Shown here: positions 2,968 to 61,594 of the stretch, piece by piece
Layout: the number at the start of each line of letters is the position of its first letter
Position numbering within the stretch: position 1 is the stretch's first letter
NCBI GenBank assembly: GCA_950106755.1
Contig: OX467092.1
Location: 26,612,582-26,676,581 of the forward strand
DNA length: 64,000 nucleotides
From: Climacium dendroides
Lineage: Eukaryota > Streptophyta > Bryopsida > Hypnales > Climaciaceae
Direction of reading: 5' to 3'
Notes under the pieces: model-generated
What the model was told of the DNA's origin: nothing
Seen by the model: the letters and a program-made list of their open reading frames with translations, nothing else
Database searches by the model: none
Translations under genes and position numbers: made by a program

Positions 2968-4173
2968 ATGTCTATTATTAGAACATTACGTTTTTTTTCA
3001 ATGGAAAAAGTAAACGAAATTGTCATGCACAATTTGAAATTAGACACCATCATGGTAGCTATGACAGCCATGAATATTGACTGCAAACGTATATTTAAGC
3101 AAACTAAGGAGGTGAATGCAAGACTTTGTGGCTTTAAAACAAAACTAAAACAACAAATGGAACATGTTCATATACCAATAATGCAGACTAATTGACTAAG
3201 ACTTTATTGAACTCAATGTTACAAGCTTTAAGTTCACCTTCCAACGACAGCAAGGAACCCTGTGTGACAATGTTAGCTGCTTAAAGAAATTTGATGGTAC
3301 ACGCTCCAAGTTTTGAAGTTTTGTCAACCAAATTTGACTTATTACCTTCTTACATCTACAATGATATCCAATGGATGCGGTCTATATAGGATTTATGTGA
3401 ACTTTGCTATTTACATAAGCACTCTTTTCATTTGTACAGCTTTTCAAGAAAAACTCTCTAACCTATAACATACTTTGAAACATGTCTCACAACATTTGCA
3501 AAGGTTTTTAATAAGCACAATAAGATTTGTTCTACAACAACAAAGATTCACAATTTGCGAAAATGACACACTTGGCATTAGTATATGTTCCAGATTTTTG
3601 TCAATTAGCATGCAATATCAATTGGAACAAACAAGCTCTAATAAGCCAATTCTACTATGGCCTATGCGATGAAATAAATGATTTATTATTATCCTTCCTA
3701 GATCCTCCGATACTCAATGAAGTGATTAACCAAGCTATCAAGTGTGATGAAATTCTATTTAAGTGACAATAAGAAAGACATGCATGGACTACACTCCAAT
3801 TGTATGTTGGTTACTTGGCTACTTCTTTGACAATTGTTCAAATAAACAATTTGAAGTAAAAGATATACAAATTGATGCAATTCAATTCAAGCCTTTGATC
3901 AAACAAAAAAAGACACCAACATGAGGAAGGGTTGTGTCTCGATTGCAAAGAGCCTAGATACAAGATTGACAATTGTTTAAAAAAACAGCAATGCACATCC
4001 TAAATTTGGAGCACAAATATTCAATGGAAAAACAACAATTTTTAGCTAAAGTAGGGACCATATGGGTAGAGCCTACATTGTTACCGGCAATTCTAGGTCT
4101 TATATTATCCGCAAAACCTATGCTTCTCTTTAAACTAGTGTGTTTAGGCCCCAAGAAAATTGAGACTCATACT
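2968..4173 (+). pseudogene. Decayed Ty3/gypsy gag and start of protease, cut by the giant element
   Basis: Fragments in several frames read like a plant Ty3/gypsy gag. 2968-3195 has the HNLKLDTIMVAMTAMN region, and 3527-3766 has LACNINWNKQALISQFYYGL, a typical retrotransposon gag segment. Near 3930-3975 a zinc knuckle remnant reads C-L-D-C, four residues, Y in place of His, four residues, C. The last residues (LVCLGPKKIETHT) end at 4173, where the giant element begins. The frame resumes at 61595 with LIDLRALACFIDESFA, the gypsy aspartic protease start. Frameshifts and stops make this a dead copy. It shows where the giant element inserted and what the empty site looked like. Confidence 0.85.
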
Positions 4174-4199
4174 ATGGGTAATTTCATTAAAATGGCGAT
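4174..4199 (+). repeat. Left TIR of outer element
   Basis: 26 bp, perfect inverted match to 61565-61590. The next 20 bp (ATTCCACATGCCATTT) also match the right end of the miniature element at 60520-60655, so that small element derives from this left end or from a relative. Confidence 0.93.
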
Positions 4200-4666
4200 A
4201 TTCCACATGCCATTTGCGCGAGCAAGACGATTTTGGCGGTTTTGAGATTGCATGTGGACTGGCGCCATTATATCAGAATTGCACGGAAGAGGTGGAGTGC
4301 CCAATGTTTGTAGAGGTTTTCGGTGATTGAGGTGCGGGTCACACTCCCCCCCTCTCCAATCGGAATTAGTGGCCTTGCATTCGCTTAGTGTTTCACAGTG
4401 CACAATGGTGAGTATTTTCATAGGTAGCATTCTTGATGGGAGGTGGTCGGCAAATGCAAGTGGAAAAGCTTCATATATTTCAACATGAATATAATAGTTT
4501 GTACATATATGGTAAAGGTCGAAGTACATGCGTCCTAAAGTCTACCTTAGAGCTTGGAAGTCCAAAAAAAGGAGTCAAGAAATAGCCAAACAATGAAAAG
4601 CCACGCACGGTCACATTGCATGTATGTGGGATCCTTCCTTCTAGAGGCTCTTCCAAGTTAGAGCAT
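4200..4666. other. Outer element subterminal region
   Basis: Non-coding spacer between the left TIR and the 3' end of the transposase gene. It is G-rich in places, with AAAATGGCG-like and TTTTGGCGG words that echo the TIR interior. No gene seen. Confidence 0.5.
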
Positions 4667-6510
4667 TCAGTTTGGCTTGCGTTGTTGTTCTTCTTCTGCA
4701 ATGCAGCGTAAATTATCGACGGCAAAGCTAATTTGTTGTCGTGGCACAACAAAGTTCAGTCCTTCATTCTTCTTTGGCTTCCAAGATGCCATAATGCTAT
4801 CCGTTGAAACGTAGTCATCTTGGGTTGCTGCTCGATCGATCTTCCATCTGAAATTGGTCTTTGTATCCCACCCCTCGTACAACCGCCGCATGTCCTTGGA
4901 CGTTCCGCATGGTATGTACCATTGCACGAGGACTTCACGGAAGTGGTCTACTTCTGGATCAAACTCTGGATTCACAACAACCCTACCAAGCCAAACCGGA
5001 TCCTCGCAATCTAATGCTAGTCTCACAAATACGTAAAAGCCTTCACAAAGATCAGTGGCCACGTTGTATGTACGCGGTGGCCTCCCCTCCAAGATGCCGA
5101 TGTAAGAGTCTTCTACCTCTACTTCCTCTCGCGTATTTCCGTCTTGTATGAAGTCTGTCGTAAAATCCCCCAATTGTCGAGTTTGGGGCCAAAATCCTTG
5201 CTTTGGTAGCCGATCCAATATGTCACCAAGTGCAACATGTGGGCCTTGTACTCTCTGGTCCCATCCTCTTTTGCAATGTTTGTCCAATGCTGGATGTATC
5301 CATTGAGTCCATGTAGAATCTCCGCTTTGTTTGTCATTTTCTTGGGTTTCACGCGTGGGGGATCACCTTCAGGAAGTTGAGGTTTGTGTTCGGCATCTTC
5401 CTTCCATAACTTCAAGCCCTCTTTGGGCAACCACTGAATGTTGGTACACGCTAGTTTGTATTGCATGATGGGCCAACCGTTGTCGTCCACGAAGAATTTG
5501 TACTGCCTTCCGTTCGAGTGACCCACCAATTGCTTCTTCTTCATCCCAAGATAAGGTTTCACATTAGCCTTGAAATCAGGCACCTCTTCAATAAGGTGTG
5601 GGATGAATGGAACCTCTTCCATTTCCATGTACGACTGCATCAACAACAACAATGTTGGATGGTCCTTTGCGTGGAGGACCATATTCCAACACCCAAAAGA
5701 TGCGTCGATGTCGTCGTGCGTGTGTCCTACTATCATGAAGGATACCACTACTTCTTTCACAATCCGTCGTGCAACCAAGAGGGACCAAAAACTAAAGACG
5801 TATTTGTTTTTGTTCTCTCTCTAGGAATTGTCCATTTGAATGTGAAGCACAGGTGGCAACGGTCGAGCCATGATGGGGTCCGAAGGAATGTCTCCCAAGG
5901 AACCTACACAAATCTCGCTATCCTTCAGCAATTCTCGATACAACTCGGTGCTGCCAGACCCTCGAAACAATGATCAGGAAGACTTGGCTGGAGGATCTTC
6001 TAGATCTTGTAGCAATTTTGCAATTGATCCCACGGTGAAGTTGCTGTCGCTCGGGAAAACATCTAAACTGTAGTGTGCGTATTTGCCATTGCCGTGGCCG
6101 TGTGCAAACATTGCTGTCACTTTGACGGGCAACTTCATGAATCCATCTAGTGCTTTTGTTTTCCTTGCCAATGCAGGACATGCAGTTTTGGAATGGTCCA
6201 TCTTGTCATGCATGATGGCTAGAAGTTGGGACGGGCGCAACTTGGATAGCCATCGACTACGATAGTACGCATGGCGACAAGCCTTTTGAAGAAACAAATG
6301 CTTTTCAATACGCCTTTGGATTTGATTGTAGTCCTCGGTTCCAGGTGCATGCGAGGCCCACAATTGCTTCAAGTTGTCGCAAATGCTACATCTTGCAAAG
6401 GAATCTCCTCTTCCTTTGATCACATAGTCATAAAAGTATTTCTGCCGAATCTTACTAAAGCAAGGTTGTAAGGTTGTAATATTGGGGTTGTCACCAAGTG
6501 CCTGGTTTAC
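4667..6510 (-). pseudogene. Outer transposase, 3' exon (DUF7869-like, C-terminal two thirds)
   Basis: Reading down from 6510, the frame aligns residue by residue with the intact transposase of the nested element: RGDSFARC, IMHDKMDHSKTA, FAHGHGNGKYAHY, then LHIQMDNS, VSFMIVGHTHDDIDASFG, LNGYIQHW, GFWPQ, YEGWDTKTNF, STDSIMASWKP. The family is RNase-H-like in look, with the acidic motifs HDKMDH, DN-x-S and GHTHEDID; that these are catalytic is inference. Decay: an in-frame TAG at 5821-5823 beside the DN motif, and a frameshift near 5200-5220. The exon starts after the acceptor TTGCTTGTAG at 6511. The preceding exon lies 23.8 kb away at 30285-31526, because the nested element sits in the intron. 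The stop is 490 bp from the left TIR. Confidence 0.85.
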
Positions 6511-6786
6511 CTACAAGCAACGCGAAGCATATGGTCACTCTTCACTATCCGAGCTCTTCCAGAGGTAAAGTAAATCCACACTTCTAGTTGTAGAATTAGT
6601 CCTATGCAAAGGGATCTCTACCCCTCTATTACATTCCGAGGGGGGATAAACCACCAAGACTTCACATGTGCAACACGTACATGGAATTGAATTCCTCTAC
6701 CTTTGAATTTGTATTTTCAATGTGAGGCCCCAAAATGGATAAGAATAGGTGTAGAGTAAGATAACATCTAGTACGGCACAAAATAA
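6511..6786 (-). other. Downstream part of outer transposase intron
   Basis: Non-coding. It ends (minus strand) in the acceptor TTGCTTGTAG at 6511. The last four bases before the nested element, 6783-6786, are ATAA, the left copy of its target duplication. The upstream part of the same intron is 29703-30284. Confidence 0.7.
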
Positions 6787-6814
6787 AAGGCCTTATTCGT
6801 TAAAATGAGACAAA
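6787..6814 (+). repeat. Left TIR of nested element
   Basis: 28 bp, perfect inverted match to 29675-29702. GAGAC/GTCTC words continue inside: inverted at 6820-6830, and as AAATTGAGAC twice near 6865-6893. These are candidate subterminal transposase sites. Aligned from the tip, it shares GG at positions 3-4 and TTC-x-TTAAAATG at positions 10-21 with the outer TIR. Confidence 0.93.
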
Positions 6815-7347: not shown

Positions 7348-10233
7348 TCATTCTTCAATCATAGAACCATCGTTATTTGCAGTAGTCGTGAAGGCTGCCA
7401 CTGATGCCTTAATAATTTGAATTTGTAGACTTGGAACCGTCACCTTTGGATTTTTAGTTCCATCACGAAACCGTGGCTTCCAAGCTGTCATGATACAATC
7501 TGTGCTTGACCATGTTGAAGGTATAACACTATCTTCACGCCACACATTCCCTTGTTTGGTGTCCCAACCCTCATATGTCTCCATATTAATGTGCCGATCC
7601 GAAGTAGGCCTCCAATATTGGATTTTGATCATATGCATATGCCCTGGATCGGGACTCAGAGCCATAATAGCCCTAGCGAGCCAAAATGGTTTTGGATCAC
7701 CATCAACAGGACGCACTGCAACAAAAGAACCTGCGTGTGTATCACGAGCAGCACAAAACGAAGAACGTGGATGATCACACTTACGTCCAACAAAGTTGGC
7801 ATCCTCTGCATTTTCTTCACGTAATGTGCCATTTCTTTGCATTTGATCTGTTTCATCATTGGCAATCCTTGAAGCTGGCCAAAATCCATCAAGTAATGCC
7901 TCTCGCACTTGAAGAGGTGCATCTAGAGCAGCTCTGATGCCTTTCCAATACTCTTCTAGTGGACCATTCTTCCGCCTATACTCTCCACTATGATCATTGT
8001 TTGCCATTTTGTTCCAATGTTTAACATAGCCATTCAAACCTTTCTTTATCTCTTCAAGAGCTTTCATTGGAACTGGAGTCAAAGGTTTAGGGCTACCACT
8101 TGGTACTTTAGGAAGTCCATCCTCAGTCTCTGACCACATTCTTATCCCATTTCCGTGCTCTGGCAACCACTTTGGGTCAGTACACAAATTTTTATACTCC
8201 ATCAAAGGCCATCTTGAAGAATCCATAAAAAACTTGAATTGTTGACTTTTCGAATGCCCTCCTAATTCATCTCCACCAGTGCCCAAATAACCCTCCACAA
8301 ATTTCTTGAAATCAGGGAGCTCCTTAATGAGATGAGGAATCACAGGGTGCGTTTCACAATCCATAAAGGACTTCATGAGCTTTGGAAGTGTTGGATAGTC
8401 ATTCGTCTTCAATCTTGAACTCCATCGACCAAAAAGAGCATCAATGTCTTCGTGAGTGTGTCCTACAATAAGAAAGTTGATGTATACCTCATGAAAAATG
8501 CCTTTGTATACAAGCAAAGAGCAGAAAGCAAAAACATATCGATTCTTGTTGTCCCCTGACGCATTGTCCAATTGCAATATTAATATTGGTGGGAGAGGTT
8601 GAGCTGGAAGTGGCTGTTCTGGAGGTGGAAGGAGGGAGTCCAAGCAATTTTCTGCTCCTTTTAAAAGCGCCTTTGTCAATGTGGATTGCCCCTCCTCAAT
8701 AGAAAATAATGCCCTCGATGAATTTTTAGGCGGGCCTTCCAAATCCCGCAACAACCTTGCAATGGACCCAATGGTATGATTCGAATCTGTTGGGAAAATG
8801 CCCACACCATAGTGTGCATATCGTACATCGCCATGACCATGAGCAATCATACCTATGACAGCAACATGCATTTTCATGAAGGATTCCGTTGACTTGTTCT
8901 TGTGAGAAAAGTGTGGAGAAGCCGTTTTTGAATGATCCATTTTATCATGAATGATGCACAACATTTTGTCCGGGCATCTCACGGAAAATTCCCGATTTCC
9001 ATAGTAGTACTCTCTATGAGCCCTCTGACCTACAACATGGGTATTCAAAATATTGGTATACTTATCAAACGACTCTGATTTCCAACAAGCGCTCCTCAAT
9101 TGCTTATACTCATCGCACAAGCCACACCTAGCAAAACTATCCCCACGAGCCTTGGCAGCAAATTCAAGGAAATTCTGACGGCGAATGTTGCTCAAGCCAC
9201 TAGAAGAAATCGGCTGCAAATTGAACTCAGCATTGGACTCATTTATTTTAGGTAATTGGTCACTCCAACGAAAAGCAGAAGGTAGAACCATCGCTGCAAC
9301 TTTCTCCTCAGACTCTATTGTCCTTGTTTTGTGTGGCATTCGATCGGCATCAGACTCAATAAAAGTTCGAAGCGTGGCAGTAGCTTGAAGAGTATACATG
9401 CGGGGTTTTTGGGATCCCACATTTCCATGCACCTGAGCTTGCTTCCCAATTCTAGCCTTCTCTTTGTACCTATAGAACGTAGCTCTTGCAATCCCATGAA
9501 TGATCCACCATGCAGTGGGGCACACTTCTCTACCTTTCAAGGTAATCCACTCTTTGCCAACACTGTCTTTATGGATTTGCCTATGCACCTCCAAAAGTGT
9601 CTTGCTACGCGCCTTGAAGTCCTCACCTGAATATAGTTCAGTCCTTATCGTTTGGATTTGCCCACGCGGAAAAGGTTGAATACAATTTTTCTCACAACAT
9701 GATTTTGTGGACACTGATGTGATCGATTCCATAGAGAGGAGAAGTTCTTTCTTGGGTGGAATCACTGGATCAATCCTTTCACGAGTTGTTTCGTACGATC
9801 AAACCCCCTTACGAATTCTTCTGCTTGATGGGTTCATGGCTGCGTTATATACATGGGTTTGGTCATGGTCATATAAGCTCACATCGTCATCTAAAAAAAC
9901 TCTCTTGATATCCCAGGAACGAAGTGACCATACATTGTCAGATGAGAAGAGTTTCTCGTTCAGAGACTCAGCAATTTGAATGGCAACCCGGTCATCGCCA
10001 AGAGGCTTTCCATCTTGGTCAATGATTAACTTAGGGTCAACGTTTTGGCAAACCCCCCTTGCAAGGTCCACCCCATCTTCGTTTCGAAGAGTGACAAATC
10101 GTGAGACCCATTTTGCACGAGAAATCCCCTCGCATACCTGAACATTAGGTGGAAATGGAGGAACTGGATTCGCGAACTCATCAAACCCATGGAAATCCAT
10201 TCTGCAAATACGAAGACCAATCCTTAGATTCAT
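7348..10233 (-). CDS. Nested-element transposase, DUF7869-like, one in-frame TGA
   Basis: One reading frame of 961 codons with a single internal TGA at 9799-9801. The upstream part is 144 codons (ATG at 10233; another ATG at 10200). The downstream part starts at an ATG at 9765 and gives 805 residues. Counted in the 805-residue part: a Cys pair CCEKNC near residues 23-28, a helix-turn-helix-like stretch (VCPTAWWIIHGIARATFYRY) near 90-110, HDKMDHSKT near 273, LQLDNASGDNKN near 400, GHTHEDIDALFGRWS near 437, and a C-terminal YEGWDTKQGN/STDCIMTAWKPR module. The motif set matches proteins annotated as DUF7869, which accompany eukaryotic DNA transposons; a DDE-type role is inference. The frame is otherwise intact, so it may be recently active. 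Its 5' end is 226 bp from the first P1 palindrome and its stop is 560 bp from the left TIR. Confidence 0.85.
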
Positions 10234-10458: not shown

Positions 10459-12352
10459 TTATCATCGCCCCGACGATAACCGGAAGTTGTTGTTACTCAG
10501 AGTTATCGTTGACTCAATGATAACTCTCCTCAACAAAACTCATTTCTTGATTCGTTGGATGTGATGAAGAAATAATTCAACCCAATGCACAATCTCGTTT
10601 GAAATCATAAGAAATTGAAGTATCTACACCTTTGAAAATTACTGACAAGATTATCATCGACCCGACGATAATTGGAACTCGAAGAACTCAAAGTTATCGT
10701 TGACACAACGATAATGATCTTCAATGAAACTCCTCTCATGATTTGTTGGTTGTGACGAAGGAAAAATTCAACCCGATGCACATTCTTCTTTCAAATAATA
10801 AGAAATTGAAATAGCTACACATTTGCTAAGAATGCCGATTGAAAAAAACTGACTACGTTATCATCGACTCGACGATAACTAGGAGCAAAAGAATTCAACA
10901 GTATCATTGACTCAACGATAACTATCCTCAACGAAACTCCTTTCATGATTTGTTCGATTTGACGAAGAAATAATTCAACCCGATGCACAATCTCCTTGTA
11001 AATCATAAGAAATTGAAGTACCTAATCATTTGCTAAGAATGCTAACTGAAAATTACTGACTACGTTATCATTGACTCGACGATAATTAGAAGTCAAAGAA
11101 CTCAGAGTTATCGTTGACACAACAATAATGATCTTCAATGAAACTCCTTTCATAATTCGTTAATTGTGACTAAGGAAAAATTCAACTCAATGCACATTCT
11201 TCTTTCAAATCATAAGAAATTGAAGTACCTACACATTTGCTAAGAATACCGATTGAGAAAATTTGACTACGTTATCATCGACTCGATGATAACTAGGAGC
11301 AAAAGAATTCAACGATAACTATCCTCAATGAAACTCCTTTCATGATTTGTTCGATTTGACGAAGAAATAATTCAACCCGATGCACATTCTACTTTCAAAT
11401 CAGAAGAAATCGAAGTAGTTACACATTTGCTAAGAATGCTAACTGAAAATTACTAACTACGTTATCATTGACTTGACGATAATTAGAAGTCAAAGAACTC
11501 AGAGTTATCGTTGACACAACAATAATGATCTTCAATGAAACTCCTTTCATGATTCGTTAGTTGTGACTAAGGAAAAATTCAACTCAATGCACATTCTTCT
11601 TTCAAATCATAAGAAATTGAAGTACCTACACATTTGCTAAGAATACCGATTGAGAAAATCTGACTACGTTATCATCGACTCGACGATAACTAGGAGCAAA
11701 AGAATTCAGCGGTACCATTGACTCAACGATAACTATCCTCAATGAAATTCCTTTCATGATTTGTTCGATTTGACGAAGAAATAATTCAACCCGATGCACA
11801 TTCTACTTTCAAATCAGAAGAAATCGAAGTAGTTACACATTTGCTAAGAATGCTAACTGAAAATTACTGACTACGTTATCATTGACTCGACGATAATTAG
11901 AAGTCAAAGAACTCAGAGTTATCGTTGACACAACGATAATGATCTTCAATGAAACTCCTTTCATGATTCGTTAGTTGTGACTAAGGAAAAATTCAACTCA
12001 ATGCACATTCTTCTTTCAAATAATAGGAAATTGAAGTAGCTTCAAATTTGCTAAGAATACCGATTGAGAAAATCTGACTACGTTATCATCGACTCAATGA
12101 TAACTAGGAGCAAAAGAAAGAGGTATCATTGACTCAACGATAACTATCCTCAATGAAATTCCTTTCATGATTTGTTCAATTTGGCAAAGAAATAATTCAA
12201 CCCGATGCACATTCTGCTTTGAAATCAGAAGAAACTGAAGTAGCTACACATTTGCTAGGAATGCCGATTGAAAAAATCTGACTACGTTATCATCGACTCG
12301 ACGATAAGCAGAAGTCAAAGAAGTCACAATTATCGTCGACTCAACGATAAGT
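10459..12352. repeat. P1 palindrome satellite, about 10 units of 207 bp
   Basis: The unit recurs with starts near 10459, 10650, 10857, 11064, 11271, 11460, 11667, 11874, 12081 and 12286, giving spacings mostly of 207 bp. Each unit holds two palindromes about 45 bp apart. The first is close to GTTATCATCGA-CTCGACGATAAC, the second close to GTTATCGTTGAC-xCAACGATAA. Between pairs lie conserved words (CCTTTCATGATTTGTT, GAAATAATTCAACCCGATGC, ACACATTTGCTAAGAATGCC). Changes in one arm are often mirrored in the other (TCGATGA with a matching arm). The array abuts the 5' side of the transposase gene, so a promoter, operator or binding-array role is plausible. Confidence 0.93.
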
Positions 12353-13085
12353 ACCCTCAATGACAGTATTGAGGTAATGGAATTATCCATGAAATGCTCC
12401 GACATTCACGCCACAAAAAATGGGCATTGCAAACAACTTTGTTACAACTCTCTAAACCAAAAGCAAGAGTAACCAATTCTTTATAGTCTACAGGCTCGCT
12501 CAACAAATATAACGTCTTCACGCATGGAGATGTCACAAACATGGACCTTCAATGACTAGTTTCACGTACTTCCTGACATCAATATGTACAAAACTAACTC
12601 ACCACCAGTCGAGGTCAATGGCAACTAATTTAAATACAAACTACACCTTCTACCTATGAACTCACAAACAAGAAGAAAAAAATTTGAGGACCTGCAGTTG
12701 TCAATGTGCTAGGCAGACACACTTGAAGCGCAAGAGAATAGCAAAAGCAAAAGAGTCTTGTCGGCGTGTTTGTGGAAGAAGGCATGTTCTGGCAAGTGAA
12801 GTTGTCCGTGGCAAGAGGTGGGCAAAAAGTTAGAAAAAGCGGGAAAATTTTAGCGGGCAATTCCAAATTTCAAATTTCTTGCAAACTCCTTGATTCCTGG
12901 CTGTTCAGTCATTCGCTTGAAGGCGCTTTTGCCAGCTTTCTACAAAAAAGATGTGGCTCCACCAATGCATTTTCCAAAAAAAAATTGGCCATATACAGAA
13001 TTGTGTGCTATAGTTCTAGTAGGTTGACTTTTCGGGTCGTGTGCCCATCGATTGCCCAATATTTTTAGGCCTTTTCTTGGTGGCT
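12353..13085. other. Spacer after the P1 satellite
   Basis: No recognisable protein. Short frames on both strands do not resemble any family I know. A moderately GC-rich patch at 12650-12960 could be a leader or promoter. Confidence 0.4.
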
Positions 13086-42460: not shown

Positions 42461-42469
42461 GTCTGACTT

Positions 42470-43440: not shown

Positions 43441-43469
43441 AAATGAGACAAGAAAATTATAAGGAAATA

Positions 43470-45473: not shown

Positions 45474-47990
45474 TAGGAAGCTCTTGGAACGCCACAAGAC
45501 CAGATGCCATTCCAGGGGACTTTACCGCCTGGTTTTCCTTCCCATCACTCTTTACCACCGACTATTCAAACTTTGCAATCTGAATACACCTCCACCCCGA
45601 TCTCCAGTTCTCCTGTGGATGCTCAAATGGTGAGGACCGAACTCCCTTCTCCTACTCTTCTCTTCAGTCCGGGGGACTAAGTTTAGACCGCTCGGTTTGA
45701 AGTCGTCCCTCCGCCCTTAACGACTCATCCTCCCAACGCTGTGGTTCAGACCGCTTGGTCTGAAGTTCTCCTTCCTCCTCTAGCGCCTCATCCTCTCGGC
45801 ACTGTGGTTCAAACCGTCGGGTCTGAAGTCATCCCTCATCTGCCGAGTTCTTCCACTGGTGGTCCCTCCACTGCCTTGTCGCCCATGCCTCCAAGGATCC
45901 TCATCGAAGACATGCAGAGGGAGTTGGATCGTCTCCGTGCGGCATTGACTCTTGCCGAACGGACAGAGATGAAGAAAGTGAGGGCAGACCTTAGTGGCAC
46001 GGCTGTTCCCCAATCGAAGCGGCCCATGGCAGAGAAATTGTCCATGACTTGGCTTCTAGTGAACGAGTTGAAGGATTGTGCGCACAAGGACCGGACTAGG
46101 ATGATGGTGATTGTGTAGGTCGCCATGGACACGCTCAATGCCGAACTGCCGCCCCTCACCGCGGAGGAGAAATTGTATGTGGAGGCTATTTGGATGATGG
46201 AGTAAAATTTGCAAAACGCGTTGGGGCATCGGAAGGAGACCTCCATCGACCTCGACGACATCAACAATGCAGAGCTCCAAGCCAAAATTGACGAGAAGAA
46301 TGCGGCCAGGGAGGAATACAAGCTCATGGTGATGGCGGCGGTGCAGGGTAGGTCGACCTCGGGTGCGGACGCTACAAGTCCCAATGCATCAACGACGGGC
46401 GCAGGGGTGTCGGCTCAAGTTGTATCCACCTCGAAGGCGGGAACGACACGAGGGATTTCTTTTGCTGCAAGCAGGGTCATCAAGGAGGAGAAGCCCGACA
46501 AAAAGTTGCCCATCAACTTGGAGTTCTTGCAGAAGGTGAGGGAGAGCCTCGAGAGGAAGAACTCTACAGTGGTGGAGAAGTGCAACACGACCATCGATGT
46601 GCTGCTGCAAGAGAGGGAGGAGAAGCAACGCAATTATGAGGCCAAGGAGAGGGAGAAGAGGGCCCTCAAGGAACAACAGGAGGCCAGGGAAAGGGAGAGG
46701 GAGGCTAGGGAAAAAGAGAGGGAGCTCAAGGAAGAAGAGAAGAAGGCCAAGCAAAAGGCGAAGAAGATGCAGCGGAAGCAGGAGCTCATCGAGCAGCGGA
46801 AAATGCTGGCATTGCTTGACTGCAGCTGCTTCCGCCTGGAATGGTGACACCGGCCACGCCAACAACTCCTAGTCCGAATCCTCAGAGTGAGGTGCACATG
46901 GTGTCTGGAGTGTCCACCACGAACTCGGCTTCCGCTACGGACGTCGCTGCGTCGGGCCTCCGCCACTTGGCAACGAGGATCCCTTCTCTTCTTTGCGATG
47001 ACCTCGCGCTCAGTCAATTTCCTCCTATGCATGTTGCTGCAGCCACGCATCCTTCCAGCATCTACTCCAACCCTTACGACCTACATTTTGACTTTGGAGA
47101 TTTGGATAGCTCCTTCACTAACCTTGTTGAGCAAAACTCTGCGCTAGTGTAGGATCCCGTTGCTCCCGCCAACCCTCCAGCGACGTAGGAGCAGCCTCCT
47201 TCAACAGACTCGACAGCCGAAGACGACACTCCTCTCTCGGTGCGTAGTCCCTCCACATAGCTTCCATGCTTGTAGTTAGGCCCTGTGGCGCAGATGCTAT
47301 GTGAGGGTTTACGACGGGCCGATCGAAGGTTGCCCCGCCGAGTTAGAGACCCCCAGGGGCATTAGTTCTGTAGATGTATATGCACAATCTTGTGTCAGAC
47401 GTAGTTGGATCTCAACTTGTACAGTTTTAGACCGGCGCCTTGAAATTGTAAAGCATTCAAACTGAATTTGTAATATATCGGCTATCATTTTTTACTTGCG
47501 CGTGCTTTGTGTCCTATGGAAACGTTGTGTCTATATTGCCCTTCAATGTGTGACTTTCTTGTCTTTGGCTTTGTAGTTACGCTCGCATCACTTGTCCGTC
47601 GCGGATGACGTGGCTCTTGCACCTGAAAGCGAGGGCGCGGTGCCCATGTTGGACACGGCTTCAGCACTCCCGACAACGGCTTCCGTACTCCCGGCAACGG
47701 CTTCAGCACTCCCGAGAACGACTTCCCCTCCGCCCTCTGGAGTGGCTGTACAAGACGACCCGGCGGACAACGTGGAAATGACATAGGTCGCGGTGTGGGA
47801 TGAAGTCTCGCCCGTCGATCTTGCATGAGCAACTCTTGCTGTCACAAGTGAGGTCCCGCCAGTGGAGTTGCCGATGACGGGTGCGGCTATTGTTGCGGAG
47901 GATGCTCCCGTCCCTTTGGAAATGACCACTGCCGCCTCTCCCAAGGAAGTCCCTCTCGTTGCAACCGCCCCTTCCAAGGATGTGATTGTC
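45474..47990 (+). pseudogene. Phosphatase-fusion gene of the outer element, N-terminal exons
   Basis: Exon 45474-47239 (donor TCG-GTGCGT) joins in phase 0 to 47577-47990 (acceptor GGCTTTGTAG, donor GTC-GTACGT). It is Pro/Ser-rich at first with in-frame P2 copies read IQTLQSEY, VxTARFEV, VVQTAWSEV and VVQTVGSEV. A coiled coil follows (DMQRELDRLRAALTLAERTE), then a long Glu/Lys/Arg helix at 46590-46800 (REREAREKERELKEEEKKAK), then Ala/Pro/Thr-rich spacers. Breaks in an otherwise steady frame: TAG at 45474, 45684, 46116, 47150, 47186 and 47784, TAA near 45669 and at 46203, TGA near 47826, and a 1-2 base frameshift near 46815-46838. Each stop fits a C-to-T change of CAG, CAA or CGA. The architecture parallels 25588-26658 of the nested element. 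Confidence 0.6.
45564..45828. repeat. In-frame tandem P2 palindromes in coding sequence
   Basis: 45564-45586 (degenerate), 45680-45702, 45744-45766 (GTTCAGACCG-CTTGGTCTGAAG) and 45807-45828. The last three sit in a repeat of about 62 bp containing CTCATCCTCCC/CGGC phrases, all in one reading frame. Confidence 0.85.
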
Positions 47991-48089
47991 GTACGTGCAG
48001 TTAGCTATAAGTATCCTTATAACAACGAAACGTTGCAAGATGACACGAATTATCGTTCCAGGGAACTCTAATATGATATTGGTTGAATT

Positions 48090-51000
48090 AGAGGTATCCG
48101 GATTGTGACTACACCTTTAATTTCCTTCGTTTCACTTCCCTACCTTATTCCGGAAACTAGGTACATTCCGGATTCCGTTTTAGATCTGGACTACTTCCGG
48201 AACCTAGTTCCATCTCTCCTAGTTTACAATTTTTGTTACCTCTGTTTTACCCTCAGAGGATCCTCCCTTGCTCTAGAAAGGGGTGGGGACTCACCACTTG
48301 TGTGACTAACCTCTCTGTTCCCTAATTCTTAATCAACAATACGCCCTGGACAACGTAGTTGTATAAGGAGGGAGGAGTATTCTCTCATAGCTTCTGGATT
48401 GGCTGACCCGGAAACAGGTCACACAAAGAAACTCTCACACCTCTCTTACTACAACGACGGATCCGAACTTATAGATTGAAGGGAGTAGATTTCCAAGAAG
48501 ACAACGTATTGAGATGGAGGTTGGTAGACCTTCTGGAGTAGCGGGAGATCCTTCTTCTGGCGGTCGCTTATCTCCGCATGGAACCTCCCTAGTTCTAGAC
48601 TTACAAAGACCTCTACCTCTCTACCCGGATCGCTGTTCCGACAATTTGAAGGCACGTAACGCTTACACTCCCCTATTCAGATTGCATCCCCTCCTGACTA
48701 CCTTAACACCCAAGAGACCTGTCGCTCGAGATCTGAATTCCTCCTCTCCCATCCCTCTCTTACTCCAGTACACAGATACAATACAAACGCATACACTAGC
48801 TAAAACTCCATAGGTAAAGTGTAGCTAGTAGTACTCCAGCTCACTCAGATTAAGAAAGAAATTGAAATAACATACGTGAAAGCACTAAGATGAAATTGGA
48901 ATGGAATGGCAGACCACTAACTTACTTGCCATTAAATACTAACTGAAAATCCAAAGTCAACTCCTAGAAGCCTGAAAAGGAAACCTGGAAATCCAGGAAA
49001 CCAATCGCTGAACCCCTCCGAGATATCCGGAAAGGCCAGTCACTGTTGTCTCGAGAAAACCGGAAATTCCCAAACTACTTGCCTAAAATTCTAGAACCTG
49101 GACCCACGCTCGGAAACCCATTCCAGATCCGGAACTACTCTTTCTAGGAATTCTAATGCCTTAGCCTTCGGACCTTCTTCAAGCAGCTGCCCGCTTGACT
49201 GGTTGGCATTCCTTTTACGCTCCTGGATGGAGTCATTTTCGTTGCTGCTCGAGTCTGAATGTGGCGCGTTGCGGGAGACGGATCGCTATCCCTCTCCGTT
49301 CCGGAGTCAGGTAGAATGCGCATTCTCTTCTTCGGAGTCTTCAATGACTTGAACTTCCGTCTCCTTCTCTGGTGGTGTCTCCTCCAATATTGTGGATTCG
49401 CTTCTCTTCTCCAATGTAGTCTCCTACATGTGTGCGAACCCTTCCAAATTCGTCCAGGCTGGATTGGTCATTCCGCCGATCCGGTTGATGAGATCTCCTC
49501 TAACCCGCTGTCCTAGGACTTTGAACGATCCCCTCAAAAGGTTGGGTACCGTCTGCGCTCTAGGGATTTCCGGAGTTGAGACTTTGGGTAGTACTGGAAC
49601 CGATTTTGCACTGGACTCATGTTTCGATTCCGACGCTGGCCTCAAATTTAACTCTATCATCCGTATCTTGTTGGAAGTGGGCTCAGCCGGCGTGAGTATC
49701 CCTCTCAGTCCCTCCATTCGGGTGGCACGATCCGCTAATGGCCTTCTTGGAGTAGCCGAGACAAATAGGAGTTCCAAAAAGTTTGAGAAATCCATTACCT
49801 GATTCGGATCGATGGTTGACAGCAACTGTCGTAACTCCCCTAAAACCCGCTCTATCCGTGCCGTGAAGTCTACTAGGATGGTCACCACCTTTGTCCCGGT
49901 TATGTGACCTTCCTGTATCATCCTTGAATCGAATAGAGCTGCTTTCGTGATGACGTCTGCTTTGATGTCGATCGATTTGGATAGATTCTTGACAAGAGAG
50001 AGGGCCTCCTTCTCTCTCTCCTTTGAAGCCGCCATCTCCCCTTCTGCCCAATTCAGTCGGGTCTGGAGTTGATTCCGCTCCGTCTCCAACTCCTGAATCC
50101 AGTCCTCCCTTTTCTTTAGGTCTTCCGGTTTGGGCAGTCGCTTGACTGCTTCCACAATCTGATTTGGCTCCACCTTCAAAACTTCCGCCGTGTCTATCAC
50201 CAGATCCGCCAGACTGTTGTGGAGCACCTTGGCTTTGCGTATCCATTCGAACCCGGCATTGAAAAATGCCAATTCGGATTCTACCTTCGAATCTTTGCTT
50301 GACTCTCTTCTCTCCATCACCGGCGATTTGACTCGTGATCCCGGATCTGTTGACTTTCGCTTCTTTGTCCTCGGATTGGTTAGAGGTTCCTCGGGGTGTT
50401 CTTCCAGTTCCGACTCGATCAAATCTTCCACTTCTTCTCCAGAAAGTCCATATGACAAAATAGCCTTTCCGGTGTCGTACTGGACTATTTCCGCAACACT
50501 CAAAAGCTCTTGTTGGTGGTATAAGTGGAACAGGTAAGTGCTAACCGGACTTGCTTTTGCACGGGTTACATGCTCTGCTAGTTTAGACACTAACCCGGCT
50601 ATGACTCTACCCCAATGCACGGCCCAATTCTCCATAGCCCCCAAAATTGTATTGGCCACCATAACGATGACCCGTGTAGGTTTTTCCGGGTACAAGATGG
50701 GAATGAGGAACTCTAGAACTCTCCTATGTCTCTCGTCCTTGCATTCACTAATAGCAAATCCGTCCTTAGGGTTTGCAGACCCTATGAACTTTCCAGCTAC
50801 AAAACGGTCCGTCCTTGATGCTAACCCGTTTCCACTCTTCCGGAACTGATACACATCCGCCCAGATGTCTTCCGTCCACGTGACTGGCCGTCCTCTCAGA
50901 GTGAGCTCATACTGATTCGGAACTCCGTGGAATAGTTCCTAGATCATATCCTTGCTCTTAAGGTTCCATGGTCGGTGTAACAAACCGACACACCCTAATT

Positions 51001-51545
51001 TGATCAAATCCTCCTCTAACTGCTTGTGCAGTTCCGGATTGTCTGGAATAGTTGGAGAAATAATCCGGGCAGATACGACCACCTTCCGGACCGATACTGA
51101 TGCCATAAGGTTTAAGTAGAAAGGAAGGGAGAGAAAAAATAAACCTAAATCAGTCGCTAACTCACCACTCTTTCTCTCAACTACTCACACGGACAGTTTC
51201 AATAAACAAAATAGGAAGGTGGAGATGGAAACCCTCGGCAAACAACTTAAATATCAAACCGTCTCCCTACGGTAATCAAGATAACGACTACAGGTCTGTT
51301 ATACTAATGGTATCCTATTCCCGTAGCTCCGGGGTTTATACTGTAGGTTCCTGCGTTCCGGGTAATTCCGGATTCCGGATCCAGATAAGTTCCAGTTACG
51401 GATTTTGCCGGAACACCTATTTTCTAGTTTGGGTTTTTTCTCACAAAAATCCCGTTTTAACTATAATGTTTTTGATTTTTTCTCTATTTTTCTCACCTAG
51501 CTCTCTTAACCTTGATCCGTCCCTAGATTCCGGATTCCCACAGTG
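48090..51545. other. CCGGA-rich segment inside a gene intron
   Basis: TTCCGGA/TCCGGAA words are very frequent here and rare elsewhere in the window, for example ATTCCGGATTCCG at both edges (about 48164 and 51366). It lies within the 47991-51808 intron of the phosphatase-fusion pseudogene and carries its own minus-strand gene. It is probably an inserted element with its own sequence signature, but I could not define matching ends or a target duplication. Confidence 0.45.
49424..51106 (-). pseudogene. Unknown 560-codon protein gene with one in-frame TAG
   Basis: ATG at 51106 opens MASVSVRKVVVSARIISPTI. The frame runs to 49424 with a single TAG near 50941 (after NLKSKDMI, before ELFHGVPNQY), where CAG would fit. 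The N-terminal half has aromatic-rich segments (YELTLRGRPVTW, IWADVYQFRKSGNG, FLIPILYPEKPTRV, ENWAVHWGRVIAGL). The middle is charged (SELEEHPEEP, TKKRKSTDP), followed by a coiled coil (WIQELETERNQLQTRLNWAE). I do not recognise the family; size, layout and setting are compatible with a gag-like or transposon cargo protein. No zinc knuckle, protease or polymerase was seen. Confidence 0.5.
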
Positions 51546-51911
51546 ATGAAGGTGAGACTTTCTTCCCTTCCTTTGGACAAAAATCACTTGCATTGTCCCC
51601 CCTTGCTTGTCTTGTCTGCATCTTTGAAGTACATAATGTATTATACATCCTCCATTCAAGATAGGGCCCTCGTAATGCACGGTTCCCTTCCTCTCTCCAC
51701 GAGTTTGTGCGTCGCACCCTTTAGTTTAAAAAAGTTGCATGTCTTTTGGTATTGGCTTGGACTGCTCATTCTCGATCTGACTTTCTGTGCGGGGTATCGC
51801 TTATGTAGGTACCGTTGCCTCACCTTCCGAAGCATCTGCCTTTCTTTAGTTACTTGATCGTGTTGGAGCTGGAAGGGGTTGTATGTCACGTTCAGCAGGT
51901 GGGGCTCGAGA

Positions 51912-52345
51912 TGTCGGATCCCATTGTCAAAGGAGTGGATCCCGTTGGCAAAGAAGTGGATCCCGTTGTCAAAGGAGTGGATGAAGTTGTCAAAGGAGCC
52001 ACTACAAGAGAAAGTGTCCAAATTGACAAAAACTGGCCTGAATCAACTAGTCCTAATTGACAAAAAATTGACAAGTTTTTGTCAATTTGGACAATTTTCT
52101 GTCAATTTGGACTAGTTGATTCAGGCTAGTTTCTGTCAATTTGGACACTTTCTCTTGTAGTGAGCGGATCCCGTTGGCAAAGGAGTGGATGAAGTTGGCA
52201 AAGGTGCGGATCCCGTTGGCAAAGAAGTGGATCCCATTGGCAAAGGAGTAGATGAAGTTGTCAAAGAAGCGGATCCCGTTGGCAAAGGAATGGATGAATT
52301 TGTCAAAGGAGCGGATCCCGTTGGCAAACAAGTAGATCCGATTGG
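51912..52345. repeat. 21-bp coding tandem repeat (heptad DPVGKGV)
   Basis: GGATCCCGTTGGCAAAGAAG-type units of 21 bp encode (V/A)DP(V/I)(G/V)K(G/E), alternating with DE(V/F)VKG versions. About 19 units if the inserted element is ignored. The array lies between the first motif and the remainder of the phosphatase-like domain. Confidence 0.88.
52000..52162. mobile_element. 163-bp CACTA miniature element, TSD AGC
   Basis: TIRs of about 70 bp, nearly the whole element: CACTACAAGAGAAAGTGTCC at 52000, its complement ending at 52162, and further inverted ATTGACAAAAACTGGCCTGA/TCAGGCTAG. AGC at 51997-51999 and 52163-52165 is the 3-bp duplication typical of CACTA. Removing 166 bp restores one frame through the heptad repeat. 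Confidence 0.93.
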
Positions 52346-53457
52346 CAAAGTGCAGCCGTCCGAGGAAGATTTTGACCCTACCAGGTGACATAGGTTTGAT
52401 GAATACGAGCTGTGTTGCGGTCCCGATCTGCGGCTCTTCTTGAGCAGCTTGGCCAAGAGGTTTTGCGTAGCCATCTGGACTAGACTGCTGGCCAACGTCG
52501 CCAAGCCCGTGGTCAAATTCTTGTTCCGCGGCTATAACACCCAGCCCTTGCACATCCTCACCTTGGAGGATTGCACCTACATTGTAGAGAGATCGACGTG
52601 GTGGAAGTGCGATTATAGACCCAACCCCGCACGTCCATGCATTGCACCCATCTGCTCAGTGCACCTTGGCCTCAACGACTGTGAAGCTACTGTAGTGAGC
52701 AACACGTACCTTCAATGCGACGAACATCCAAGCAGCCTCCTATGCCTCAAGGTCTTGCACAAGGCGGTGCAGCAGCTCCGGACCAAGGATTTTGTGCCGA
52801 ATTCCACCAACACCTTGCTCGTCGACTGCAGTCCGCATAGCTCCATTTTGAATTTGGAGTACAACGTGATTTATCCAGTCCCGTACGTAAGGAGCGAGTA
52901 CAACAACTTCTTGACCTGGTCGTTGCATCCATATCTGGCGGACTTGCTCAAGTGCAATCGGGGCATGTCGCACTACTTGTCCCAGAATCCCCCGTACTTT
53001 GGACAACTCGAGACACCCCTCAAGTAGTGGATCCTGACTCAAAAAATGAAATCATATGCCAAAATGCAGGACCCCTCCCTCTTGCTACAATACCCAGACA
53101 GAGTTGGCATGTACCATACAAACAAGAACGATTATTGGACCTGCAAAACAAATGTATGAGCTCATGCAAATAGTGAAAATGGGATGCGTGTGCAGACTCA
53201 TCGGCGTGCTCACGTTCCAGTCATATTTGCTCTCAACGCATCCAAAACCTCTCCCAAGAGTTCTAGGCGACGTCGGATGTGCATGACGAACGGTGTGGGC
53301 TCCTCAGATGGATGCCTCTACCCAAACAAGGAGGGCATGGATGTGACGTCCGCTCCTCTTTAGAAGAAAGGGTGTTGCCATTGGCGGTGTGTGCGCAGCT
53401 CCGACATGCTCCGCATATCGTCGAACAGGAAAGCTCGAGGGAGGTACATGCGGTTGG

Positions 53458-54148
53458 ACGTATGACATTGAGGGAGAGACGAATTTTTCCCAACGTGCAG
53501 TATTAGGTGGAAGTGTGGAACAAGACAAAGGAAAGTAGTTTCTACATCCAATCTTCCTGCCTTTATTATTGGCTCGTTGATTACGTTGCAATTCTTGTGT
53601 CGAGGGGGGGCTCATCATTTATTATGGCGTGTAGGCTGCTGCCCATGAATCTTGTAGGGGTGTCAACATGTGGCCTACACTAAAACCAAGCTAGGCAGTC
53701 AAGGGTGCACGTAGTATGGCTGGGCCAACAAAATGGCGGATAACTAAGTGGGTGTGGTTGACAATGAACTTCGGCGGTTGCTCCCGTGTACCTATTTCAT
53801 TTGCATTGTTAATCGGCTCTTTTGAAAATGGTTCAACACGTCGACCCCTTCGACGGACTCGGGATTGTTCCATAAATGAATTCCACGTAGGTTATAGTGT
53901 GTCAAAGACTAATGGAGAGTACAAACATTATTACATCCATCCATATTAATTTTCTACATATTAGATCCATCCATATTAATTTCGTGCAATACACTTTGTA
54001 ATATTTCTCACATACAAATCTAAATGAAAACATTGTAACATTATAGATTCATATGGCCCACAAGATGATAGCTTCATATGGCCCACTATATTGTAGGTGT
54101 ATATGGGCCATAGTATTATAGCTTTACACGGGCCCCAACAAGACAATT
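53458..54148. other. Spacer, no gene assigned
   Basis: Short frames only. TATGGCCCA phrases recur at 54050-54120 (repeated GGCCCAC-A-ATAG). Confidence 0.4.
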
Positions 54149-56098
54149 CACTAGTAGAAAACAGGCTATCAATGACTATTGTTTATAACTGCGTAACCAG
54201 TCATTTAGGACACTAATGTCAATAGAATGACTAAAACTGGATTTTGGGCTCAGAGTCATTTAGGACAAGTCATTACGGACAAGGTAGTCATTTGAGACAA
54301 GAGCATTCTTTTTCATCCTATGTTGATGTGGAACTTCATTAGGGTGTGATTATATAAAGCACCTCCAATGGCAGTTTGCCACGTGGCTACAGATCTAACA
54401 TGTTGAGTTGGCAGTTTTTTATTCGTTGGTATTGGAGTGATTCTATTTGATGTCAAATAGGTTGTTGGAGTCATATTATAGGCTGCTGGAGTCATTTCGC
54501 AGGTTGTTGCAATCAGTTTGCAAGCTGCTGCAGTCATTTTCTAAGCTGTTGGAGTCATTTCGCAGGTTGCTGCAATTAGTTTACAAGCTGCTGCAGTCAT
54601 TTTGTAAGCTGCTGGAGTCATTTCGCAGGCTGTTGTAGTCATTTCACAAACTGTTGCAGTCACTTCGTAGGCTGTTGCAGTCATTTAGTAGGCTATTGTA
54701 GTCATTTTTCTGGCTGTTGAAGTCATTTTGTAGGTTGCTGGAGTCATTATATAGGCTGTTGGAATCATTTTGTAGTTACTATATAAGCTATGGTAGTCAT
54801 TTTCAAGTGATATTCATTCCAAAAAATGATTAGCTCGGTCACAATATTGTAAGCATAAATGACTACATTTATACTATTACTACACTATGTTTGCACTATA
54901 ACTACACTATGACTATACTATAATTGCACTATGTCAAAATCTGAATTGCTTAAGTTGCCTAAATTGCATGAACTACCTAAACTCCTTGAATCGCCTAAGT
55001 TGCTAGAAATCAGGAATTGCCTGAGTTGCTGAAATTGCTTAAATTTTCTAAACCACCTGCATTACTTGAACTATCAGAATTGCCTGAACTACCTGAATTG
55101 ACTGAACTGCCTAAATTGAACAACAACAAATAACAACAAACAAGAAGTAAACAATAGAAAGCACTAAAGAAAAAGTAAATTGCTACATTCAAGAGATAAG
55201 GTTGGAGGTAGACCTGAACCTTCATTTACAAGCAAGAGGAACAAATGAGAGGAAGTTGATGAACAAGAAGCAAGAAGGAAACAAAACAAGAAGAAGAAAG
55301 AAGCAAAGAGGAGGCAAAAGCAAGAAGAAAACATGAAAGAAGATGAAGCTTGAAGAAGAAGGCAAAGTAGGAGGAAAATATAAGAAGAGATGAATCTTGA
55401 AAAAGAAGGCAGCAGCAGCTGCAATGTGTGTTTGACAACTGCAATTACAATATGCCACATGTCAACCTACATAGAAATAGAAAGGCAACTGACCTAAAAT
55501 GTGGCGGCTGACCTAAAATCTAAGCCCTCCATTTACTATCAAGATACAATCTTATCCATCCATTTAAAGTCTAAACTATTCATTTTCAAATTGCCCATCT
55601 GATTCCACCATTTCAACCGTCCATTTGATCCATCCATCATTCCATCTAAGCCATCCATTTGATCCATTCATCTAAGCTGTCCATTTGAAAAGTAGTTTGT
55701 GACTTAAAAATGACTACAATGCAATTAACATTTTATAGAGAAGCAAATAATAAATTTAATAAGTTCAATTTTCATGGTGTCCTATTGTCAGTCATTTTTT
55801 AGTTTTACTGTAGTCATATATTGTGCTCATTTTATGAAAGCACAACTCAAATATGACTCAACGAAAATTGCATCAGCAATAAGGCCACAGAATACAGACT
55901 GAACTGTGGATGACACTAGTTCTGGTCGTTTGTTTCATCTGGTCGCCATCCATTGCTCTGGGAAATCACTACTAAATGACTGCTAATTGTGACAGGTCAG
56001 CTTTGGCACCATTTCCATGACTATTAGTCATTTTCAGTAGCCTTTTAGTAACCAGTCATTTTTTGACTGGTTACATTTGACCCTGTTTTCTACTAGTG
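54149..56098. mobile_element. Non-autonomous CACTA element, 1.95 kb, TSD ATT
   Basis: Ends CACTAGTAGAAAACAGG and its complement, flanked by ATT (54146-54148 and 56099-56101). Subterminal GTCATTTAGGAC/AGTCATTTT words recur near both ends in CACTA fashion. The interior has a tandem repeat (54455-54800), AT-rich sequence and purine-rich GAAGAAGAAAG tracts at 55230-55420. No transposase frame. Confidence 0.92.
54455..54800. repeat. Tandem repeat of 36/18 bp in the CACTA element
   Basis: GGCTGCTGGAGTCATTT(CGCA) units of about 18-36 bp repeat through 350 bp. The Leu-rich reading frame here (LLESFRRLLQ) results from the repeat. Confidence 0.88.
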
Positions 56099-56101
56099 AT
56101 T

Positions 56102-56440
56102 CTCCTTCAACATAGCATTTCTTTGGATACAACACTTTTAGTATACTATTTCTTTCAATAAAGCATTTCAACATAGCATTTTTTTCGATACAACACTTTC
56201 AATATAGCATTTCTTTCAATATAGCATTTCAACATAGCATTTCTTTCAATATAGCACTTTCACTTTCAAATTGAATGTGGCATTTTCCTTCTCAGTACAG
56301 TGTAGTCTAACTTTGTATAGTGCTTTCGCCCTTGGTCTATTCTTACAGCCCTCATGCTAGAGGGCATTAGTGCGCCCCTCATTTCTCCACAGCAACAAGG
56401 TGATCACTTCCCCATCATGTGCGTCTGACCAATTGCCTCT
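56102..56440. repeat. AACATAGCATTTCTTTC simple repeats and spacer
   Basis: TTTCAACATAGCATTTCTTT and ATACAACACTTTCAATATAG alternate about eight times at 56105-56265. The remainder is unassigned. Confidence 0.75.
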
Positions 56441-56497
56441 CATCCATATTCATGGTGTTGGCATCAATGTCCTTCCATTCAGATTGGCCATCACAAG

Positions 56498-56518
56498 GTT
56501 TAGACCGCCTAGTCTGAT
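56498..56518. repeat. P2 palindrome
   Basis: GGTTTAGACCGC-CTAGTCTGATTC, slightly decayed, in the first unit of the inverted-repeat array. Confidence 0.75.
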
Positions 56519-57656
56519 TCCTGCACCTCTCATCCGGGTGACATGTTGGCCTCGAATCGCTCTCTGTAGGGCGCTCGGTTCTAACCACCCATCCTAAACC
56601 CGGCAGTAGGATGGGTCTTTGGAAATAGATAGTGCTAGTAGTGGTCAATGCGTGGTATACATTGCATACCTCAATTCGAGTTCCTTCGGCTTGTAGCGCT
56701 GCTGACACAACCAACCACTTCCTCTACTATGACTTCTACCTTGGGTTGCTATATTGAGGTATGCCTTTGAACATCCGCGGTGCGGACTGAAAGATTACAT
56801 GCTCACATTTGCAATTATGGTGGCAAGACTCCAAAACTGTACATGGGCGTCGAAGAACACGAGAATTATCTAAAAGCATGATGCTCAATCTATGGATCGA
56901 TCTGCTGAACTACGGTTGTCTCGTATGTTGCCAACGAAAGTGAGCATCTCCTTTCGGCCATGCTGGAACATGGTGTAGAATAGTAGGGATGTCATGGTCA
57001 ACATTTTCCTGCATCTATTTGCGATTCTCCTGTAGGCGATGCAGGCGGCGCTCATCGTGACCTCCCTCTTCCATCTCACGCCCAAGAGATTGCGGGGAAC
57101 CGATCACCTTTCTCTTCCATCACCACACATTGCATTTTTGAGGTTGGAAACAATCCACTAGTGAGTGGATGTGGATGGGTGTGGAGAATCTTTGTCGTCA
57201 ATGCTGGTTTGTGAAGCACCAAAAAAGTTCTGCAGTGTACATGCACCATGTGCGGCGACGGAAGAGAAAGGTTATCAGATCCCTAGCAATCTTTCGGTCG
57301 TGAGAGGAGGCGGGCGTTCATGATTAGCGTCCATCCACGTTGCCTATGGGAGCATCTTGAATGGATGCTGGAAAATGGAGATCACGACATTCCTTCTTTG
57401 CTTTAAGCCATGTTCCATCATATGCAGACATCACAGAAGAATCTGTTGCGAGTCACGAGGCTACAGTGGACGAGCACTTCCTTGGAGTCCGTGGCCACAA
57501 TGATTTCTACTTCTTCAGTCGTCTACCACTCTGCTTCCGTACGACTGATCGGGGCGTCGTTCAATTTGAGGGCTTCTTGAACGGTAGCAGATTCAATCTT
57601 AAGAAAGGTGGATTCCCTTGCATCGGTGTCCTTCTATTCAGGTTGGCCATCGCAAG

Positions 57657-60519: not shown

Positions 60520-60655
60520 ATGGGGAATTTTATTAAAATGGCAAATATTCTGTGATTTCAATATCCCACAGTTCAGACCAGGCGGTCTGAACTGTGGGAA
60601 TGGCACAGTGTGGAAATGGCATGTGGAATATCGCCATTTTAATGAAATTTTCCAT
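60520..60655. mobile_element. 136-bp miniature element of the outer-element family, TSD GAGC, carrying P2
   Basis: Ends ATGGGGAATTTTATTAAAAT and ATGGAAAATTTCATTAAAAT (inverted) match the giant element TIR. GAGC at 60516-60519 and 60656-60659 gives a 4-bp duplication. The centre is a 34-bp palindrome (60565-60598) with 15-bp perfect arms, CCCACAGTTCAGACC and GGTCTGAACTGTGGG, around AGGC. Likely mobilised by the same type of transposase. Confidence 0.92.
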
Positions 60656-61564
60656 GAGCCCAGATGCGAAAACCGGGTGGAGACTTCAGCGGCATATACT
60701 CAATCTCCCAATGTGGAAGACCTAGACTTCTCGACAACAACACAGGTCACAACTTCCATTGTCTAGCAGTCTGCTTCTATATAAGGACCATGACACTGTA
60801 CAAATAGACAAATACCTTGATGTAATTGAACAGTAGTGAAGTATTGCAAATGAAAGCACTAGAATGTGGTCCATCCCGATGTACTGATGTAGGATCAGTG
60901 CTTAGGATGATTAGTGGGCAGTCCGCAGAAGTCGTCGTCCATTTGCATGTGCAGTGTTGAGAAGAATGGGACCATTGGATGTTTGTGCTCCCTCAATGTG
61001 TTCTTGAGGTTTCCTTTTGGAAATCAAGTTGTAATATCACCCGAGGTGAATCCCCATGGGGAACCCAAATTTCTATTGAATAAAATCTCCATTATTGAAA
61101 ATGACTTGAAGTTTCTCCTTAGCATTCATCCTTGTCCTTCATGCATACATTTGGTTGAGGTTCTCGAGGAAATCCCATGTTGTCTAACCTCTAACACTTT
61201 ATTCACGTGTTCTGGGTGCCTCCACCACAATCTCGTGAACCGCCCAAGCACTGGCTGTAATGTACCAAATATCTTGAAAGCAATGCATTTTGTATGCAAT
61301 CCCACAATTGAGCAACTTCAATTGACACAATTATATGGTAGAAGTACTAAATTTCCCAGCAATGTGGTAGCCACATTGCACATGCCATCACCTTTGGCCA
61401 TGTGAAGAGCACATACAACGGCACTTCTAGGCACCGAAACCTCAAAAATGGTCCCCAACAAGTCCAAATTGCACCAAAACTCCCACCTTTCTTCACCTCT
61501 CGAGCCATCTGGCTAGGAATTTCTTCCATTTTGCAACCCCAATTTATGCCATTTTCATAGCATA
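60656..61564. other. Outer element right subterminal region
   Basis: A 163-codon plus-strand frame (60914-61405, MGSPQKSSSICMCSVEKNGT) is open but Cys-rich and unlike any family I know. It may be chance or an exon. AAAATGGC words recur towards the TIR. Confidence 0.35.
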
Positions 61565-61590
61565 ATCGCCATTTTAATGAAATTACCCAT
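61565..61590 (-). repeat. Right TIR of outer element
   Basis: 26 bp, perfect inverted match to 4174-4199, followed by TACT (61591-61594). Confidence 0.93.
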
Positions 61591-61594
61591 TACT

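Follow-up and report, generated by a model that had tools for sequence, protein, structure and literature searches.

We analysed a stretch of 64,000 nucleotides from the moss Climacium dendroides (assembly GCA_950106755.1, contig OX467092.1; C41:26612582-26676581, hereafter the window), whose genome comprises 412.6 Mb in 123 contigs. The window holds a transposon with terminal inverted repeats (TIRs), here called element A, and a complete second TIR element, B, which is nested in A (Table 1). Both elements carry a gene for a protein of DUF7869, a Pfam family without known function, at their left end, and a gene for a predicted NIF-type phosphatase on the plus strand of their right half.

Table 1 Features of elements A and B in the window (TSD, target-site duplication; ORF, open reading frame)
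Feature	Position	Strand	Remarks
Element A	4174-61590	none	TIR transposon; 57,417 bp as it stands, nested insertions counted in
Left TIR of A	4174-4199	+	26 bp; tip common to other copies
Right TIR of A	61565-61590	-	inverted copy of left TIR
TSD of A, left	4170-4173		TACT
TSD of A, right	61591-61594		TACT
A DUF7869 gene, C-terminal part	4724-6510	-	in-frame stops
A DUF7869 gene, N-terminal part	30273-31238	-	B lies between it and the C-terminal part
A NIF-type phosphatase gene, partial	52389-53027	+	E 1.8e-7
Nested insert in A, TG..CA ends	47987-51542		3.6 kb; 5-bp TSD GTGAT; missing from c37 copy
A-type mini-element	60520-60655		136 bp; TIRs of A type; GAGC as TSD at either end
Element B	6787-29702		22.9 kb; inserted in the DUF7869 gene of A; second TIR family
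Left TIR of B	6787-6814	+	28 bp; different from A's TIR
Right TIR of B	29675-29702	-	
TSD of B, left	6783-6786		ATAA
TSD of B, right	29703-29706		ATAA
B DUF7869 gene, predicted transposase	7351-10203	-	one in-frame stop near 9800
Tandem repeats of 207 bp in B	10495-12434		palindromic motifs
B two-ORF gene, function unassigned	19316-22121	+	ORFs of 445 and 413 codons
Extra stretch of the window's B	22877-25677		edges approximate; missing from C1 copy
B acidic ORF	25572-26684	+	
B NIF/FCP1-type HAD phosphatase gene	27080-28012	+	PF03031, E 3.3e-12
B Ser-rich ORF	28177-28788	+	downstream of phosphatase

Ends, target duplications and empty sites

The two TIRs of A, ATGGGTAATTTCATTAAAATGGCGAT, are identical in 26 of 26 positions. 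Among perfect inverted pairs with more than 1 kb between them, the longest in each of ten first-order Markov sequences as long as the window measured 15-17 nt, and chance repeats were rejected as an explanation. The target of A is itself a repeat, which gave 22 matches in the genome, including the window, when searched for with the right flank. In each of the five paralogues fetched from the 21 other matches, the sequences that flank A on the left and right meet at a single copy of the 4 bp in an unbroken alignment; the pieces matching the two flanks are at most 12 nt apart or have a 4-nt overlap. The original prediction of a TIR transposon with perfect ends, a 4-bp target-site duplication (TSD) and a restorable empty site was therefore confirmed. 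It had also described a gypsy protease frame in the target. Indeed, the joined flanks of A give the reading frame ETHT-LIDLRALACFIDE, but a Pfam scan of the flanks revealed no retroelement domain (two matches with E-values of 0.34 and 0.43, below the cut-offs), and the gypsy label is purely motif-based.

Other copies with the same tips and 4-bp duplications, which the original prediction had proposed to search for, were found as well. A 4-bp duplication was present in all 23 end pairs tested in the two families. The A-type pairs comprised five found by coordinates, element A of the window and two mini-elements, one of the window and one of the c35b copy. The sequence L040 was too short to show a flank. 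From the B family, 14 of the 33 paired copies were tested and each had the duplication (14/14). When other lengths were applied to the same 23 pairs, two matched at 2 and 3 bp and none at 5 to 10 bp, and mismatched pairs agreed at 4 bp in 6 of 506 combinations. That the outer ends of A belong to separate small elements which flank the region by chance is very improbable. A-type mini-elements of 136, 257, 271 and 318 bp do exist, and one of them lies 0.9 kb inside the right end, but TACT matches at both outer ends, the fetched paralogues have the site empty and long pairs of the same layout are found elsewhere.

The insertion of B into A could be read from other A copies. Four of the nine other copies (c35a, c35b, c37 and the C41 copy) have a B-free site: c35a, c35b and c37 read ACAAAATAAGGGACTT at the insertion point, with a single ATAA, and the C41 copy is continuous from 6787 to 29703 in alignment coordinates. 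In c37, another insert follows about 60 nt beyond the empty site. The copies c39b and C40 are not straight at this point, and c1, c40 and c39a gave no alignment there.

Copies of both families and composition of the 57 kb

The left end of A had 43 other matches in the genome, 24 of which start at query position 74-75, the TIR tip (40 of 618 candidates were scored for the left end and 40 of 536 for the right end). In all seven A copies that were read inward the tip is retained in different flanks; within the 20-30 kb read from these seven, no right end with a matching duplication was found. By coordinates, left and right ends on the same strand pair at distances of 31.1, 34.8 and 10.3 kb, besides two mini-elements of 271 and 257 bp, and all five pairs have the 4-bp duplication. 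The 318-bp mini-element (G000:C35:23855487-23855804, L016) has a GAGG duplication and lies 14.4 kb inward of the left tip of c35b. Two left tips of A, at G000:C39:4233512 (-) and 4257389 (+), are oriented towards each other and share the outer flank aatattttgagt, resembling an inverted duplication with the flank included.

The blocks 4174-6786, 29703-32726, 47655-47986, 51543-54148, 56166-57322 and 60775-61590, about 10.5 kb in total, are collinear with one or more of the nine further A copies that were read. The remainder of A consists of B, the insert with TG..CA ends and other stretches. In the TG..CA insert a terminal direct repeat was not found, and it is of the long terminal repeat type by its ends only. 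Some A copies have matches to parts of 35.3-39.0 and 40.7-45.3 kb that are out of order or inverted, like dispersed repeats, and clean ends could not be shown for 32727-47654. In the C41 copy (L047-L050 joined, reversed), another, different nested element, which has TGTGAGTGCTC ends and a CCAAG duplication of 5 bp, occupies ~24.3-28.1 kb as counted from the left side; it is related, in reverse, to 40.7-45.3 kb of the window. Tandem repeats with a 21-bp period were seen in A at 51892-52350, together with a 71-nt inverted repeat, and at 54442-54798.

The copies of B are far more uniform. Its left end is 98-100% identical in 33 of 40 scored places and 94% identical in the other seven (window included; 367 candidates), and all 40 scored places for its right end (623 candidates) show 97-100% identity. 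The 39 other left ends begin at query position 22-28, the tip being at 28, and the 39 other right ends stop at 321-331, the tip being at 323. For pairing, each left end was assigned the closest right end up to 100 kb away. Such a partner was found for 33 of the 39, at 18.5-19.5 kb in 16 cases and at up to 80 kb in the rest, where the 70- and 80-kb pairs may be spurious; C3:522119 is one of the left ends without a listed partner. A full B copy from C1 has 18.7 kb and is collinear with the window's B, its main pieces being 91-97% identical; collinearity breaks only at the extra stretch of the window's B and at tandem repeats. B thus appears to be a recently amplified large TIR family with a typical size of 18.5-19.5 kb. 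Since most B left ends are 98-100% identical, compared to 75-92% for the long left-end matches of A, B looks much younger than A.

Also on C1, two pairs of facing B left tips (G000:C1:7829831/7851734 and 7980235/8002142), each 21.9 kb apart and with 150 kb between the pairs, suggest a block duplication or an artefact of assembly. Within B, palindromic motifs around TCGACTCGA recur in tandem repeats of 207 and 180 bp (10495-12434, 18312-18870 and 22194-22329), every listed copy of these two repeat families falls in B, and the palindromes are possible protein binding sites.

The original prediction had taken the 57 kb for a single cut-and-paste element. The region is indeed bounded by TIRs with a 4-bp TSD, but it is a nest and probably not one mobile unit of 57 kb. 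That A moved as one element, after B and the remaining inserts had entered it, would agree with the perfect outer duplication and the perfect A TIRs, as the outer ends forbid nothing, and end pairs at distances of 38-80 kb occur in the B family, with duplications at the pairs of 41.0 and 38.3 kb. We consider it unlikely, however, since the four B-free copies and the lack of the TG..CA insert in c37, the smaller spacing of the paired A copies and the apparent youth of B all speak against it. The notable mobile unit is the inner 19-kb family with its many near-identical copies.

Genes of the elements and the predicted transposase

In A, the DUF7869 gene is split by B: residues ~6-325 of P0001 are encoded at ~31.2-30.3 kb and residues ~331-931 at ~6.5-4.7 kb. 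An initial structure model of DUF7869 from 18 sequences reached a pLDDT of 59 and was not usable, but the model used here has an RNase H fold with the conserved aspartates D285, D411 and D453. Among the structures in the fold list, the solved folds nearest to its core were mariner transposases (Mos1, the SETMAR domain, Sleeping Beauty) and retroviral integrases; the list lacks some known transposon families, which the ranking does not exclude. A Pfam DDE match was not obtained for DUF7869, and none of the 18 members had an integrase match. Because of the modelled RNase H fold, the three conserved aspartates and the nearness to mariner transposases and integrases, DUF7869 is probably the DDD transposase of A and B. 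One search of a protein set gave 187 relatives at E ≤0.001, and the organisms named among the 120 relatives listed were mosses only, Ceratodon purpureus and Physcomitrium patens. A search of IMG/VR contigs, reaching close relatives only, gave no match, and a literature search found no paper mentioning DUF7869.

Since the C1 copy is collinear with the window's B, the genes of B belong to the mobile unit. Ratios of nonsynonymous to synonymous substitutions (dN/dS, Nei-Gojobori, window vs C1) were 0.50 for DUF7869, 0.30 and 0.46 for the two ORFs of the two-ORF gene, 0.43 for the acidic ORF, 0.56 for the phosphatase and 0.32 for the Ser-rich ORF, values as expected for coding sequence. The Pfam scans covered selected ORFs and stretches and gave no domain in 19.0-24.0 kb of B, where the two-ORF gene lies. 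Its protein has 66 relatives in a large protein set, all without a Pfam domain or an informative name, and the phosphatase has 63 there. Relatives of the two-ORF protein and of DUF7869 (120 listed) share the longest-contig sizes 46150, 460842, 493283, 50733 and 406742, and those of the two-ORF protein and the phosphatase share 6926, 10519 and 397408; these shared sizes suggest that the genes are linked elsewhere, too. The original prediction had spoken of cargo. Extra genes are indeed present, but they resemble the family's own gene set and not obvious host cargo.

The genes could also be read the other way round, with DUF7869 as a passenger or regulatory gene and another protein, such as that of the two-ORF gene, as the transposase. 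The two-ORF gene is kept with the element in B and, judged by the equal longest-contig sizes, in other contigs, and it lacks a Pfam match. On the other hand, tblastn found no relative of it in A except for a 15-residue match on the antisense strand, whereas DUF7869 is present in both elements and its model combines an RNase H-like fold with the three conserved aspartates. This makes a different transposase improbable.

The first HAD motif of the B phosphatase is DLNGVL, with N at a position where D is normal, and the later IDDSP is kept. A comparison with sequences of the Protein Data Bank gave eight matches with E-values of 0.35-0.93 and no useful result. No paper joining transposon, NLI interacting factor and moss was found in a literature search, and the titles and abstract openings surveyed name no TIR transposon with a standing phosphatase partner. 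To our knowledge, it would be unusual for a TIR transposon to have a phosphatase as a standing partner gene.

Taken together, we interpret 4174-61590 as a TIR transposon, A, whose family is multicopy and which holds the complete element B of a second family. Each is likely moved by a DUF7869 protein, a predicted DDD transposase encoded by both elements, and we assign this reading a probability of about 0.83. In the proposed mechanism, the TIRs would be recognised by the DUF7869 protein, which would excise the element and join its ends to target strands 4 bp apart, with gap repair giving the duplication. A would first have landed in an older repeat; B would then have entered A's transposase gene and, together with the other nested insertions, likely have swelled A to 57 kb. 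The B family would spread with its own set of transposase, two-ORF gene and NIF-type phosphatase. We can only guess that the phosphatase may act on host transcription or chromatin proteins and thereby favour expression or transposition.

Comparison with known superfamilies

Sola is a plant TIR superfamily with a DDD enzyme, a 4-bp TSD, TIRs of 11-1124 bp and a moss host, and some members exceed 15 kb; Sola1 is known from Physcomitrella patens (PMC10741241, PMC9033089). Repbase lists Sola1-3 (PMC4455052). A and B agree with Sola in the TSD (4 bp in 23/23 pairs), TIRs of 26 and 28 bp, the moss host, size and the predicted DDD triad. However, Sola elements mostly have 2-9 kb, with a mean of 5.4 kb for Sola1 in bivalves (PMC10294476), and a phosphatase or extra gene is not mentioned for Sola in the passages available. 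In the available passages of a study of transposons expressed in P. patens, Sola does not appear (PMC7466625). By the features described, Sola is the best fit, and A and B are candidate members.

More tentatively, and with some doubt, DUF7869 may found a superfamily of its own, of giant plant TIR elements with a 4-bp TSD and a module of DDD transposase, two-ORF protein and an FCP1/NIF-type phosphatase that would act on host transcription or chromatin. What is new here is the likely function of DUF7869, the giant, recently amplified element and the conserved module of a phosphatase and a gene without assigned function. A role as transposase gives DUF7869 a testable function, and a 19-kb TIR element that was apparently amplified recently bears on the size limit of DNA transposons that spread.

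Tc1/mariner has the solved folds nearest to the DUF7869 core, and the second aspartate of DUF7869 is of an LDN type that resembles the mariner motif. Membership fails, because Tc1/mariner elements have a 2-bp TSD of TA, with sizes of mostly 1.5-6 kb in plants (PMC10741241), and A and B have 4 bp of varied sequence. Ginger1 and Ginger2, with TSDs of 4 or 4-5 bp (PMC10045372), share the 4-bp length but fail on the ends, which are TG..CA with TIRs of 40-270 bp in Ginger and 26-28 bp with tips of ATGGG and AAGGC in A and B. Ginger has a Gypsy-type integrase domain, whereas DUF7869 has no such Pfam match, yet a predicted integrase-like fold. The target of piggyBac is TTAA, which occurs in none of the 23 duplications. 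The 4-bp length is shared, but piggyBac ends are CC..GG (PMC10045372), unlike both tips, and membership fails. Polinton/Maverick fails on its 6-bp TSD (PMC10045372). Polinton, Teratorn, Terminon and Starship are of the same size class as A and B. Polinton/Maverick encodes a protein-primed DNA polymerase, and all four are known for enzymes and gene sets other than those identified in A and B.

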